Origin: an uncultured Methylococcaceae bacterium
GTDB taxonomy: Bacteria > Pseudomonadota > Gammaproteobacteria > Methylococcales > Methylomonadaceae
Length of the DNA: 64,000 nucleotides
NCBI GenBank assembly: GCA_903928685.1
Contig: CAIYRS010000055.1
Coordinates: forward strand, 1 to 64,000
Direction of reading: 5' to 3'
Below are positions 49,642 through 55,961 of the stretch, piece by piece. The position numbers and the translations under genes are program-made. How positions within the stretch are numbered: position 1 is the first letter of the stretch; every line of letters begins with the position of its first letter. The notes beneath the pieces are model-generated. The model worked only from the letters and a program-made list of their open reading frames with translations. It was not told the origin of the DNA and did not search any database.

Positions 49642-50778
49642 TTAAGAATCAAACAACCTCATATACTCAACAAAATCAAATACCCTGTTACGTTGGTATC
49701 CCGTTTTTTCTACTAAAATTTTTTGCTCGACAAAAGCCTGTACTAAATCATTTGCGGCTTTGTTTGAAAGTCCGGTCATATCTTGCACATCCTTTATCGT
49801 CACCCTGGGTTTTTTAAACAGATGGTCAAATAATACATGGCCTGTTTTTCCCCGTTTGCCAAGAAGTGTGAGTTTCTCCCTTTCGATACTGACTTTTAAG
49901 GCAACGATTTTCTCCAAGGTTAACACTGCATTGTCAGCGGTTTGTATAACCCCCGTCAGAAAAAACCGCAGCCATTGTCCCAAATCATTTTTATTACGGA
50001 CTACCGTCAAATTATCGTAGTACAGCGATTTATTTTTCTCAAAAAAATCAGACAAATACAATAATGGTTTAGTCAGAAATCCACTAGAAACAAGATACAA
50101 GGTAATCAGAAGTCTTCCTACCCTGCCATTGCCGTCCAAAAATGGGTGGATGGTTTCAAATTGATAATGGGCAATAGCAATGCGGATAAGGTGCGGAATT
50201 CTTATCTCATCATTATGTAAAAACTTTTCTAAATCAGACAATAAGTCAGCGAGTTCAGCGTGGCTGGGCGGTATAAAAACTGCATCGGCAAGGCTAGCCC
50301 CGCCAATCCAGTTTTGCGATTGCCTAAATTCGCCGGGACTTTTATGTTCTCCCCTGACGCTAGATAATAGGATTTTGTGGGTATTTTTAATTAAGCGATT
50401 GGATAATGGCAGGGTTTCAAGCTCGGCAATCGCTTGGTTCATCGCGGCTATGTAGTTTTTAACTTCCTGTTGGTCGTCGCGTTTTTCAGGCGCAAGGTCT
50501 TTTTCAGCCATCAAAGCTTCTTCAATCGTGGTTTGAGTACCTTCAATCCTACTGGAATCAACAGCCTCTTTCACAATATGCATTTCAATGAACATGTCAA
50601 TATTAGGCACGAATTGGGAAAATGAATCCAACCTGCCTAGTTTATTAGCCGCTTTCTCCAGTAATTCATTGATCGTTTCATCTGCCCAATGGAAACCATG
50701 ATTTATTTGGCAAGGAAAGAAGTATTTGTACTGATAGCCTTCTTGGTAAGAACCTGCGACAAAATCAGTAATGTTCAT
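49642..50778 (-). CDS. Fic family protein (AMPylase) with C-terminal winged helix
   Basis: A 378-aa enzyme predicted to transfer AMP onto a target hydroxyl. The catalytic motif HPFLDGNGRVGR (residues 211-222) is complete, with the His and the phosphate-binding Arg. An inhibitory helix motif SSRIEG (75-80) marks a class II, self-inhibited Fic. The last 70 residues form a winged-helix domain (VTIKDVQDMTGLSNKAANDLVQAF), so it may bind DNA. ATG 50778 is preferred; TTG 50790 would add four residues. A ten-unit 40-bp tandem array starts 23 nt upstream. It sits downstream of an FtsX-type permease on the same strand. Confidence 0.9.
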   Translation of the reverse strand: MNITDFVAGSYQEGYQYKYFFPCQINHGFHWADETINELLEKAANKLGRLDSFSQFVPNIDMFIEMHIVKEAVDSSRIEGTQTTIEEALMAEKDLAPEKRDDQQEVKNYIAAMNQAIAELETLPLSNRLIKNTHKILLSSVRGEHKSPGEFRQSQNWIGGASLADAVFIPPSHAELADLLSDLEKFLHNDEIRIPHLIRIAIAHYQFETIHPFLDGNGRVGRLLITLYLVSSGFLTKPLLYLSDFFEKNKSLYYDNLTVVRNKNDLGQWLRFFLTGVIQTADNAVLTLEKIVALKVSIEREKLTLLGKRGKTGHVLFDHLFKKPRVTIKDVQDMTGLSNKAANDLVQAFVEQKILVEKTGYQRNRVFDFVEYMRLFDS

Positions 50779-50800
50779 AGCGTATTCCAAAAGTAAAACT

Positions 50801-51200
50801 CATAACTTGCTGAAAATAAATCTAGTGGGAAAGAATCTTACTTTGCCTGCTGAAAGTAAAATTAGGAGAAGAGTATCTTACTTTGCCTGCTGAAAGTAAA
50901 ACTAGGAGAAGAGTATCTTACTTTGCCTGCTGAAAGTAAAACTAGGAGAAGAGTATCTTACTTTGCCTGCTGAAAGTAAAACTAGGAGAAGAGTATCTTA
51001 CTTTGCCTGCTGAAAGTAAAACTTGGGGAAGAGTATCTTACTTTGCCTACTGAAAGTAAAACTTGGGGAAGAGTATCTTACTTTGCCTGCTGAAAGTAAA
51101 ACTAGGAGGAGAGTACCTTACTTTACTTGCTGAAAGTAAAACTAGGAGAAGAGCATCTTACTTTATCTGCTGAAAGTAAAAGTTGGAGATATGTACATTT
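50801..51200. repeat. 40-bp tandem array of about ten copies upstream of fic
   Basis: The unit, read on the plus strand, is CTTTGCCTGCTGAAAGTAAA followed by ACTAGGAGAAGAGTATCTTA. Unit starts are at 50801 (degenerate), 50841, 50881, 50921, 50961, 51001, 51041, 51081, 51121 and 51161 (partly degenerate). Central copies are nearly identical; the end copies diverge. Each junction contains the dyad TTACTTT-N8-AAAGTAA. A further partial unit (AAAGTAAAACT) reaches to about 50789 at the fic start. Confidence 0.95.
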
Positions 51201-51254
51201 CTCTAGAAAGTTTGGTCGAGTAAAAGCACTAATCTTTCGTGCCATAAAGCCAAC

Positions 51255-53828
51255 TCAATAACTCAATCCTGCTCTGACAGCAATTCTAGTTGCCTTCCTG
51301 GCTGGTAAATAAGCCGCCAACACCGCCAAAACTAAAACCACCGCCAACCAAATCCCCACCGAAACCCAAGCAAAAACAAAATCCAAATGAATGCCCAGCA
51401 TAGTAATGCCCAGTTGTTTGGCGAGCGGTTCGGCGAGCAGATAAGCCAAGGGAATACTCAACAACCAAGCCAGCAAACCGTGAAACAAGCCTTCGAGCAT
51501 AAACAGTTTAAAAATGGCGGATGAGTTAGCGCCGATGGCGCGGAGTACGCCGATTTCGCGGGTACGTTGCAACACGCCGATGGCGAGTGTGCCAGACAAA
51601 CCAATTGCCCCGACAGCGGCGATCATGCTGGCTAAGCCGAGCAACATACTGGTCAGCGGGCGGAATTGGTTTTGTGCGAACTGGCGTTGTTCGAGTTTGG
51701 CGAGGGTGGTGTAGATGTCGAGTTTGATTTGCTGCTCGGCAAAAGCGGTTTTTAGGCTGTCGGTGTAGGTTTTTTCTTCGTCTAGGTTGTTGATGTTAGC
51801 GGCGAGCAGAGCGAAGGAATGGTGATTATCGGTTTGTATACTGCTGAGCGGTGCGTAAACGGGTTCGACGGCGTAGCCTGAGCCTGCGAACCAGCGATAG
51901 AGGCCGATGACTTGCCAATCGGTGGTGGGAATTTGAGTTATATTTTGGGGCAAATTTGACGTGAGGTTAAGCCGTTCGTGGTGAGCCTGTCGAACCATGG
52001 ACGGCTTAACCGCCCGCCCTTCGACGACCAATGGAAGTCCCTGTTGGGCAGGCTCAAAGCCTTGCTCGTCTTTATGTTTAATGGAAGATTGCTGAAAAAC
52101 CTTCACTTGCAAAGTATCGCCAACCTCAATCCCATTCAACTCAGCCGTCGCGGCATTCAACACCAAATGCTGTTGCCCTTCGTCAGATTGATCAAACCAA
52201 CGCCCCGCAACTATCAAAGGTTGGTACATTTTCGTTTCAACAGGCAAGGCGATCATCTGCACACCTAAACTACCGGATTGCTTAATCAATTGCCCGTTTT
52301 GCGAAAGTTCGGAGGGCAGGCGGTTCCAAAATTCCACTGAGGTAGTCGGCGCAATGCTTTGCACGATAGGCGAGACCGTATCGGCGGCTTGATCTTGGCT
52401 GAACCCTAAACGTACGGCATAACTGCTACGCGCCAGTTCGTTGTCCAGCGTCAATTTGACGGATGAAATCAAGCTCATAATGATGATGAACAACACGCCA
52501 GCGATGATTAACACGCTTTGCGTCCAAAACAACCGCGCTTTGCGGCGCAGCAAATTGCCCAACGCAACGGCGTAAATGGTCGGTAACAAACTGGTGGCGC
52601 GACGTTCCAGCCAGCGATCAAAACCGCTGCTGGCAAAATCCGCACCCAAGCCATAACTGGCAAGCGCTTGCCGCACTGACATTGCCGCACCTTTCCAGAT
52701 AGGCCACAGTGCTGCCAACAAAGGCGCGGTCAGGCCGCCTACGATCATGAAAACCAATGCGCGGGGCGAATAGGCAAAATCCGCCAATTCGATATTGAAT
52801 AAACCCAACAACCAACGGCTGCTAAAGAACGCCCCCGCCCAACTTAACGGTACGGCGATTATCAATGCAACCAGCGACAAAATCAGTACTTCGCTCAAAT
52901 AAATGCTGGAAATCGTCCAACGGCTTGCGCCCACTGATTTCATGATGCCGATTTGGTCGGTTTGCTGGGTAATCAACGCGGCGACGGTGTTCAAAATCAA
53001 CACCGAACTTAAAGCCAGCGATGCCCACGCCATCACCGTCAGCACCAAATGGATGCCGGAAAAAATCGCTCGTCCCCAATGTTCTTCGGGGTTTTGCAAT
53101 AGAGTGGCGTTGACTGCAATACCAGATTTCGCTAACTCGGCACGGAGTTTTCCGGCGATGTCGCGGGCTTTATCGGCGGAGTAGGGCGGTTGGATTTGCA
53201 CCAAGACTTGCCGGAAGCTGTGTTCAGGAATACCGAAAGCGGGCGCCAATTCAGGCGCAATGAAAAAATGCAATTGCCCACCAAAAGCAGGTGGTTTGAC
53301 GAAAGGGTGGCGGATGATGCCGTTTAAACTGACAATTTCAGAACCTTTAGCAGTTGCGAATTCGATGCTGTCGCCAATATTAAGTTTGGCGGATTGCGCT
53401 GATAAACGTTCGGCGGCGATGTGCTGGTCTTTGGGGAAATCACCGGACACCAAGCTCATCAAGTCATAACGTTGGCTTTGGTAATCAGGCCGGAAAATCA
53501 CCGTTCCCGTCTGCCATTGTGTCGATTGGGGTGTTTTGTATTGTGCGGTGAATTGCGTTAGCAGGTCGATATTGGCAACGCCGTCGATAGTTTTTAGTGT
53601 GTCGGCGATGGTTATATCGGCATCTTGGCGCAAAATCAGGCTGATGTGTGAGGGTTGAGATTCTCGATGCGCGTTGTCCATGCTGCCTAATTGCAAATCC
53701 ATCATGCCTAATAAAGTGCCGATAACGAATAGGCCGATGGCCATGCTGGAAATGGCGAGGGCGGTGCGGGATTTGTGCGTCAGTAAATCAGATGCAATCT
53801 TGTATTTAAGGGCGGAGTTAAAAAACAT
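51255..53828 (-). CDS. FtsX-like ABC transporter permease
   Basis: An 857-aa inner-membrane protein with two FtsX domains: an N-terminal helix, a large periplasmic loop, helices around residue 280-390, a second such unit and a terminal ring of helices (GVLRAIGANSSAIFKLFMLEG). The ATP-binding partner gene is directly upstream (6-nt gap). Such pairs (LolCDE/MacB/DevC relatives) extract lipids or lipoproteins or export peptides. A 45-bp in-frame insertion of a dispersed palindrome (51966-52010) adds 15 residues, VKPSMVRQAHHERLN, in the second periplasmic region without breaking the frame. Confidence 0.85.
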   Translation of the reverse strand: MFFNSALKYKIASDLLTHKSRTALAISSMAIGLFVIGTLLGMMDLQLGSMDNAHRESQPSHISLILRQDADITIADTLKTIDGVANIDLLTQFTAQYKTPQSTQWQTGTVIFRPDYQSQRYDLMSLVSGDFPKDQHIAAERLSAQSAKLNIGDSIEFATAKGSEIVSLNGIIRHPFVKPPAFGGQLHFFIAPELAPAFGIPEHSFRQVLVQIQPPYSADKARDIAGKLRAELAKSGIAVNATLLQNPEEHWGRAIFSGIHLVLTVMAWASLALSSVLILNTVAALITQQTDQIGIMKSVGASRWTISSIYLSEVLILSLVALIIAVPLSWAGAFFSSRWLLGLFNIELADFAYSPRALVFMIVGGLTAPLLAALWPIWKGAAMSVRQALASYGLGADFASSGFDRWLERRATSLLPTIYAVALGNLLRRKARLFWTQSVLIIAGVLFIIIMSLISSVKLTLDNELARSSYAVRLGFSQDQAADTVSPIVQSIAPTTSVEFWNRLPSELSQNGQLIKQSGSLGVQMIALPVETKMYQPLIVAGRWFDQSDEGQQHLVLNAATAELNGIEVGDTLQVKVFQQSSIKHKDEQGFEPAQQGLPLVVEGRAVKPSMVRQAHHERLNLTSNLPQNITQIPTTDWQVIGLYRWFAGSGYAVEPVYAPLSSIQTDNHHSFALLAANINNLDEEKTYTDSLKTAFAEQQIKLDIYTTLAKLEQRQFAQNQFRPLTSMLLGLASMIAAVGAIGLSGTLAIGVLQRTREIGVLRAIGANSSAIFKLFMLEGLFHGLLAWLLSIPLAYLLAEPLAKQLGITMLGIHLDFVFAWVSVGIWLAVVLVLAVLAAYLPARKATRIAVRAGLSY
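51966..52010. repeat. In-frame palindromic element inside the permease gene
   Basis: GTTAAGCCGT (51966-51975) and ACGGCTTAAC (52001-52010) are exact complements flanking TTCGTGGTGAGCCTGTCGAA. Total 45 bp, a multiple of three. The GTGAGCCTGTCGAAC core belongs to a dispersed repeat family; a decayed relative may lie near 25945. Confidence 0.75.
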
Positions 53829-55325: not shown

Positions 55326-55961
55326 ATGCATACCATTCATATAATAGATAAATTAGACTCTACTCATGAAGGCCCCAAAGCGATAGAAACCGATGAACAT
55401 GTATTTTTAAATCAAGGTTCATTGGATGGTGCTTGTGGTCATTATTGTGTTTTTATGTCACTTATAATAAACGGAGTTTTGAAAAAGTCAGAAGCTGTGG
55501 AAGCTCTTGGATATAAACAGGATGGGCGAACACATATTGGCAAGCTCGCTGCTAGAATTAAAGATCATCGGTTTTTTGAAGGAACATTAGATTCTGATAT
55601 TGAAAATATTTTTGATGGAATTTATGGAAATCAGATTGAAGTTGATAGATTTTCAAAGCATGGGAATTTAAGAGAATTTGTTGTAAGCAACATAAAACAA
55701 AATAATCCTGTCATGCTTGGTATTTCCTTTCAAGGTGGCGGACATTGGGTTTTAGTTGTTGGTCTGGATTATGCTGGGGATGATGAGGATAAAGAACTGT
55801 GCCGTTTTTTAGTTATTGATCCAGGTGGTAGTAATATGGAATTCTGTTCATGGAATGGTGTTATAGAGGCCAAAGGTGCAGGTGGGCCTTATCCTTACGA
55901 ATGGTGGGGCGAAAACAGAAAAGTAAAGCTAAAGGATGCAATTGCAATAAAAGCCATTTAA
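55326..55961 (+). CDS. Papain-fold (C39-like) cysteine protease, stand-alone
   Basis: A 211-aa protein with the catalytic set of a C39/papain-like domain: GSLDGACGHYC (nucleophile probably Cys37), GGGHWVLVVGLDY (His140) and VIDPGGSN (Asp165). No signal peptide or transporter fusion is visible. It is strongly AT-rich compared with its neighbours, suggesting horizontal acquisition. Similar stand-alone peptidases occur as effectors or toxin-like enzymes, but there is no clear immunity gene apart from a small antitoxin-like ORF 40 nt downstream. Function unknown. Confidence 0.6.
   Translation: MHTIHIIDKLDSTHEGPKAIETDEHVFLNQGSLDGACGHYCVFMSLIINGVLKKSEAVEALGYKQDGRTHIGKLAARIKDHRFFEGTLDSDIENIFDGIYGNQIEVDRFSKHGNLREFVVSNIKQNNPVMLGISFQGGGHWVLVVGLDYAGDDEDKELCRFLVIDPGGSNMEFCSWNGVIEAKGAGGPYPYEWWGENRKVKLKDAIAIKAI

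Follow-up and report, generated by a model that had tools for sequence, protein, structure and literature searches.

The 40-bp tandem array that precedes a fic gene in the window (the whole stretch of 64,000 nucleotides analysed here, from an uncultured Methylococcaceae bacterium) is in all likelihood an expanded form of a conserved autoregulatory operator, on which a dimer of the encoded Fic protein would repress its own gene. Comparison of sequences lends good support to autoregulation through a predicted operator for the protein's own winged helix. The expanded operator is what is new here, self-repressing Fic-HTH proteins being of a kind already known. Class II enzymes are said to represent about 80% of Fic proteins, and their role and control are nearly unknown (PMC9755527).

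The fic gene and its product

The gene lies between lnt, with which it is convergent, and an upstream ABC-type permease gene (51255-53828, minus strand), both of which are unrelated to fic. The relevant features are as follows.

49642..50778, minus strand: fic, encoding a predicted class II Fic AMP-transferase of 378 aa with a C-terminal winged helix; ATG at 50778 (Pfam and SoFic)
50539..50556, minus strand: N-terminal inhibitory-helix motif SSRIEG of class II Fic proteins, residues 75-80 (sequence)
50113..50148, minus strand: catalytic FIC motif HPFLDGNGRVGR, residues 211-222 (sequence)
49645..49872, minus strand: C-terminal winged-helix domain, residues about 303-378 (AlphaFold2 secondary structure, pLDDT 81-95)
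49726..49764, minus strand: recognition helix NKAANDLVQAFVE, residues 339-351, with K340, which tracks the half-site sequence, at its N-terminus (AlphaFold2)
50808..51189, minus strand: putative 40-bp tandem operator array of 9.6 copies, the only such array among 128 fic loci (TRF)
50838..51179, minus strand: nine exact dyads TTACTTT-N8-AAAGTAA, hence 18 exact half-sites (pattern search and unit alignment)
50813..50844, minus strand: fic-proximal module AAAGTAA-N18-TTATTTT, decayed, 1 mismatch
51173..51204, minus strand: distal module AGAGAAA-N18-TTACTTT, decayed, 2 mismatches
50790..50796, minus strand: additional TTACTTT half-site that stops 11 nt short of the ATG, in the place of the last half-site of most relatives (sequence)

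By its motifs and domains, which include Pfam matches to Fic_N (4.6e-26) and Fic (1.6e-18), the protein is a class II Fic AMP-transferase for which AMPylation is predicted. Its catalytic motif is intact, conforming to HPFx(D/E)GNGRxxR, and all positions of the motif except L214 and V220 are invariant across 44 homologues. The sequence S75-SRI-E79-G80 agrees with the class II inhibitory motif (S/T)xxxE(G/N), as defined in PMC9755527, and precedes the Fic motif on the same polypeptide; S75, E79 and G80 are invariant in 44 homologues. A C-terminal winged helix had been proposed from the letters alone, and the AlphaFold2 model (pLDDT 92) bears this out, as does structural alignment of almost the entire protein with SoFic, 7xux and CbFic2. 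In structure comparison the top hits are SoFic (Z 40), the mycobacterial Fic protein 7cb8, 7xux and CbFic2 (8cil).

Both fic (GC 0.40) and the array (0.37) are richer in AT than the window as a whole (GC 0.45) or the permease gene (0.51), and the closest homologues of the protein lie in other phyla (73% identity in a Lentisphaerae genome, 70% in an Ignavibacteriales one), which together suggest that fic and the array were acquired by horizontal transfer. A comparison with empty sites found no synteny in the flank of relatives beyond lnt, within the 1.5 kb read. Two further features were observed in the window. Within the permease gene, at 51960-52090, a palindrome-like segment GTTCGTGGTGAGCCTGTCGAACCATGG that codes for VRQAHHERL has the look of a REP-type repeat that entered the coding sequence in frame, and at 55326-55961 a 211-aa open frame without a Pfam match occupies an AT-rich stretch (GC 0.37).

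The array and its expansion

TRF describes the array, which lies between the end of the permease gene and fic, as having period 40, 9.6 copies, 92% matches and a score of 615; no other repeat in the window scores above 56. Read as AAAGTAA-N18-TTACTTT, the array comprises ten modules, of which eight are exact, one has 1 mismatch and one has 2. The sequence-only reading had announced a ten-copy array directly upstream of fic, with highly identical central copies and decay at the ends; that copy number is a fair count, the position is right for a gene on the minus strand, and comparison of the units finds those at the centre identical or nearly so and the ends decayed. The close placement also stands, with the distance to the ATG corrected from about 25 nt to 29 nt.

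Substitutions in the nine intact units affect none of the 126 half-site positions and 13 of the 216 spacer positions (Fisher p=0.003, an optimistic value because tandem copies share ancestry through few duplications). Invariant half-sites amid drifting spacers are suggestive, rather than firm, evidence that the extra units have been retained as putative binding sites since the expansion.

The window carries 18 half-sites, or about 20 if the decayed ends are included, compared with 2-7 and mostly four in 56 operator-bearing relatives (two counting rules), and its period-40 run score is 264, the next among 128 loci being 48. This expansion, about five-fold over the usual two modules, is a genuine outlier, with a copy number that rests on one assembly and may be some units off. 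The operator next in extent, with seven ATAATTACA-type half-sites between 145 and 16 nt before fic, belongs to a member of the Armatimonadetes (L039), so that a different half-site has also been modestly expanded in another lineage. A self-inhibited AMPylase with an expandable operator array, it had been suggested, would be an unusual switch; "unusual" is apt for the expansion but not for the repeated operator itself, since two modules are the family norm.

Elsewhere in the 3.38-Mb genome three one-mismatch matches to the dyad occur, which we ascribe to chance as a reversed control pattern gives ten. A wider regulon was rejected, there being no operator site above control level in the rest of the genome. 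A survey of 398 genomes from the phylum found the two-module TTACTTT pattern (at most 3 mismatches) in the window's own genome alone, so that these half-sites do not represent a common motif. An iteron or CRISPR was likewise rejected, given the ordinary chromosomal neighbours (lnt and the ABC permease gene), the near-identical "spacers" and the association of the array with fic, and so was a viral origin, because viral contigs lack an exact two-dyad match.

Conservation of the operator upstream of fic homologues

We compared the upstream DNA of some 125 fic homologues, drawn from genomes of bacteria and from viral contigs, and many of them have TTACTTT and AAAGTAA half-sites that alternate in direction. 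Many phyla exhibit the same operator grammar: the half-site TATTTTACTTT recurs, each copy inverted relative to the last, at steps of 25 and 15 bp that add up to a period of 40; the typical relative has four half-sites, that is, two modules. The same half-site and spacing are found before homologues of 55-73% identity in Lentisphaerae, Ignavibacteria, Bacteroidota, Nitrosomonas and others, and the final half-site of relatives mostly stops close to the ribosome-binding region. In a sequence-blind search, any 11-mer was allowed as half-site and four of them had to follow one another as < > < > at 25, 15 and 25 bp; the real DNA outscored all 40 of its dinucleotide shuffles in 73 of 126 fic upstream regions (mean score 27.5 versus 17.9). 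Direct repeats with period 40 are present in 47 of 82 loci, the runner-up period, 41, occurring in 18. Closer to the window, a genome of its own family (G034/L086) has a fic upstream region that, as far as it was compared, matches the one in L027, labelled Methylobacter sp., without a difference, so that the host is probably a gammaproteobacterial methanotroph. Our literature search, which missed most subscription papers, found no earlier report of this operator family.

The operator is absent from 42 loci, in 11 of which fic overlaps the upstream open frame, whereas operator-bearing loci have a gap of at least 57 nt to the upstream gene; some loci that lack it nevertheless have long upstream gaps. 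Retention of the operator where fic needs its own promoter is as expected of a site that acts in cis on fic. Loss of the dyads among relatives that keep the gene had been put forward as the observation that would speak against autoregulation; this comparison was made and leaves the proposal intact, the clearest losses being those in which fic overlaps the gene upstream.

The neighbours of some relatives are of interest in their own right. In four close relatives fic lies directly behind type I restriction-modification genes (hsdM in L006 and L007, hsdS in L032 and L067), with Pfam matches to N6_Mtase and Methylase_S in these upstream neighbours, and similar-looking neighbours are found in L029, L033, L068 and L083. 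In some cases fic overlaps the type I restriction gene by 4 nt. This arrangement hints at a link of these Fic relatives with DNA defence loci. An odd partner is seen in L058 (Hydrogenophilales), where fic overlaps a glutamate-cysteine ligase (GshA) gene, again by 4 nt.

The arrangement of half-sites also bears on which pair a dimer would occupy. Chains of the form < > < > are the most frequent (27 of 56 relatives; > < > < in 5). A < > step measures 25 in 85 of the 93 cases and a > < step 15 in 55 of 67; spacer rigidity, taken alone as a test of the register, is not significant (p=0.09). From chain order and step counts the putative dimer site is more probably AAAGTAA-N18-TTACTTT, with N8 as the gap between dimers, than TTACTTT-N8-AAAGTAA. 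The latter dyad, singled out in the sequence-only reading and present in nine exact copies, is less likely to be the functional one.

Covariation of half-site and recognition helix

Half-sites vary with Fic lineage and include TTTTACTTT, TATTTGCAG, TAGTCAAG, TTTTAGTTT and others. Even within the window's own family, fic genes with other half-sites (TTTGCAG in L087 and TTTTAATT in L088) encode other helices. With protein distance held constant, residues 337-346, which comprise the turn and the N-terminus of the recognition helix, are the best 10-residue window for half-site distance in three data sets (partial r 0.35, 0.41 and 0.45), and a partial Mantel test of residues 337-356 given residues 1-302 yields p=0.002. 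Distance over the whole winged helix adds no signal beyond the rest of the protein (Mantel, partial r -0.02); only the turn and the recognition helix carry the covariation signal. Some lineage signal remains, since the single residues 41, 239 and 288, outside the winged helix, also rank high against half-site distance.

Residue 340 tracks the half-site sequence. ACTTT half-sites accompany 33 of 39 proteins with K/R340 and none of the 19 without, S340 is mostly found with TGCAG-like sites, P340 with sites containing TTAA or TAAA, and Q340 with TAGTCAA. An independent-contrast test on a tree built from the Fic part points in the right direction but is underpowered: the half-site changes independently only 5-6 times, and K/R340 is concordant in 2-3 of these changes and never opposite (sign test not significant).

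Proposed mechanism and alternative explanations

Binding by the window Fic, repression, the dimer register and the effect of expansion are what we infer in the following scheme. Each 40-bp unit would provide one inverted pair of TTTTACTTT-type half-sites. A Fic dimer, held together through the N-terminal part as CccR and SoFic are, may bind one such pair with its two winged helices, AAAGTAA-N18-TTACTTT being the most probable pair, and the bound dimers would repress transcription of fic. As adjacent dimers would lie 40 bp apart, about four helical turns, and so on nearly the same face of the DNA, co-operative filling is plausible. The usual two modules would have grown to about ten by tandem duplication in the window's strain, and the expansion may give tighter or steeper repression, or allow one locus to hold many Fic dimers. 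Self-repression on a repeated operator had been suggested at the outset. The part that concerns an operator for the protein's own winged helix is favoured by conservation, recognition-helix covariation, half-site constraint and the parallel with CccR, and repression of its own gene by the window Fic through the array is, by analogy, the most likely outcome. Counting against this explanation, no sigma70-like promoter with at least 9/12 matches was found upstream of fic for the operator to overlap.

Weaker promoter-like sequences do occur within the units, and it is conceivable that the array is a series of promoters, each unit containing TTTACT-N17-GATACT, so that expansion would add promoters together with operators. 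Six units match at 8/12 with 17-bp spacing and the operator between the hexamers, but this falls short of the 9/12 threshold and AT-rich repeats easily yield such matches; enrichment in relatives is modest (36 of 52 loci versus 26 for shuffled DNA at 9/12, and 7 versus 4.7 at 10/12), and we consider such an arrangement unlikely. A passive VNTR, in which a two-module operator was amplified by slippage and the extra copies have no effect, is a serious contender, though we place it somewhat short of an even chance: at most seven half-sites suffice in all 56 operator-bearing relatives, and identical central units with decayed ends fit recent slippage, against which stands the contrast between invariant half-sites and drifting spacers, few as the independent substitutions are.

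That a host regulator other than Fic reads the array is very unlikely. DNA-binding data are lacking for SoFic (PMC10628234), and binding by the window Fic is a prediction, but the operator follows fic across phyla, its half-sites vary with Fic lineage and recognition helix, also between fic-bearing genomes of the same family, and the rest of the genome contains no sites above chance. An RNA element in the fic leader, such as hairpins or an attenuator, was rejected as extremely improbable. Each dyad could fold, but folding is no better than that of shuffles (z -0.58), no Rfam match was obtained, and pairing alone would not require the same half-site in all copies and in both orientations.

Beyond the expanded autoregulatory operator that we favour, the array may be an evolvable dial, on which copy number, changed from strain to strain by slippage, determines the threshold of self-repression, and at the same time a scaffold that stores or activates many Fic dimers at one locus; the latter idea derives from the activation of CbFic2 by DNA binding, and we regard the combination as rather doubtful. 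If true, it would couple enzyme activity to occupancy of the enzyme's own operator. Because the operator grammar accompanies fic in many phyla and changes together with the recognition helix, it offers a general, testable handle on Fic control. It supplies numerous natural pairs of protein and operator between which specificity could be swapped, as well as one natural ten-unit operator for studies of co-operativity and titration.

Comparison with known systems

Tandem arrays that are coated by a DNA-binding protein beside its own promoter, with repression as the result, are familiar from ParR/parC of R1 and the omega repeats of pSM19035. These partition autorepressors are unrelated to the window Fic, have much shorter units and a role in segregation, and contain no enzyme in the repressor.

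The closest solved structure is that of SoFic (PDB 3eqx and 3zcn; 351 aligned residues, rmsd 2.4, 26% identity), for which DNA binding has not been demonstrated (PMC10628234). The window Fic is not SoFic proper, as it scores 177.5 bits against the cut-off of 550 for the SoFic equivalog NF046030.

The nearest functional parallel is CccR of Yersinia pseudotuberculosis, a class II Fic-HTH autorepressor that acts on an inverted repeat near its own -35/-10 elements (PMC9755527). Self-repression was established by lacZ fusion, EMSA and footprint, requires dimerisation, and is reflected in promoter activity 3.3-fold higher in the mutant (PMC9755527). The window Fic shares with CccR its class, the N-terminal inhibitory motif, the C-terminal HTH and the order of domains, and it likewise combines a winged helix with an upstream inverted-repeat operator, predicted here, that is conserved and matched to the HTH. 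For an overlap of the operator with -35/-10 elements, the candidates are the weak 8/12 sites within the units, no site reaching 9/12. The two proteins are only distantly related, with 19% structural identity between the window Fic and 7xux, a Fic structure that is probably CccR as it was released in the same month as the CccR paper. The CccR operator is a single pair of 10-mers, AGATAATCAT-N26-ATGATAATCT, whereas the window has TTTTACTTT half-sites in closer pairs, about ten of them in tandem.

CbFic2 of Coxiella burnetii (PDB 8cil) resembles the window Fic in combining a Fic domain with a winged helix, and it binds DNA (PMC10628234). AMPylation by its E66G variant is raised over 22-fold by a 20-bp DNA (PMC10628234). 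The DNA used with CbFic2 was random and no specific operator was reported (PMC10628234); in contrast, the window Fic is accompanied by a specific predicted operator.
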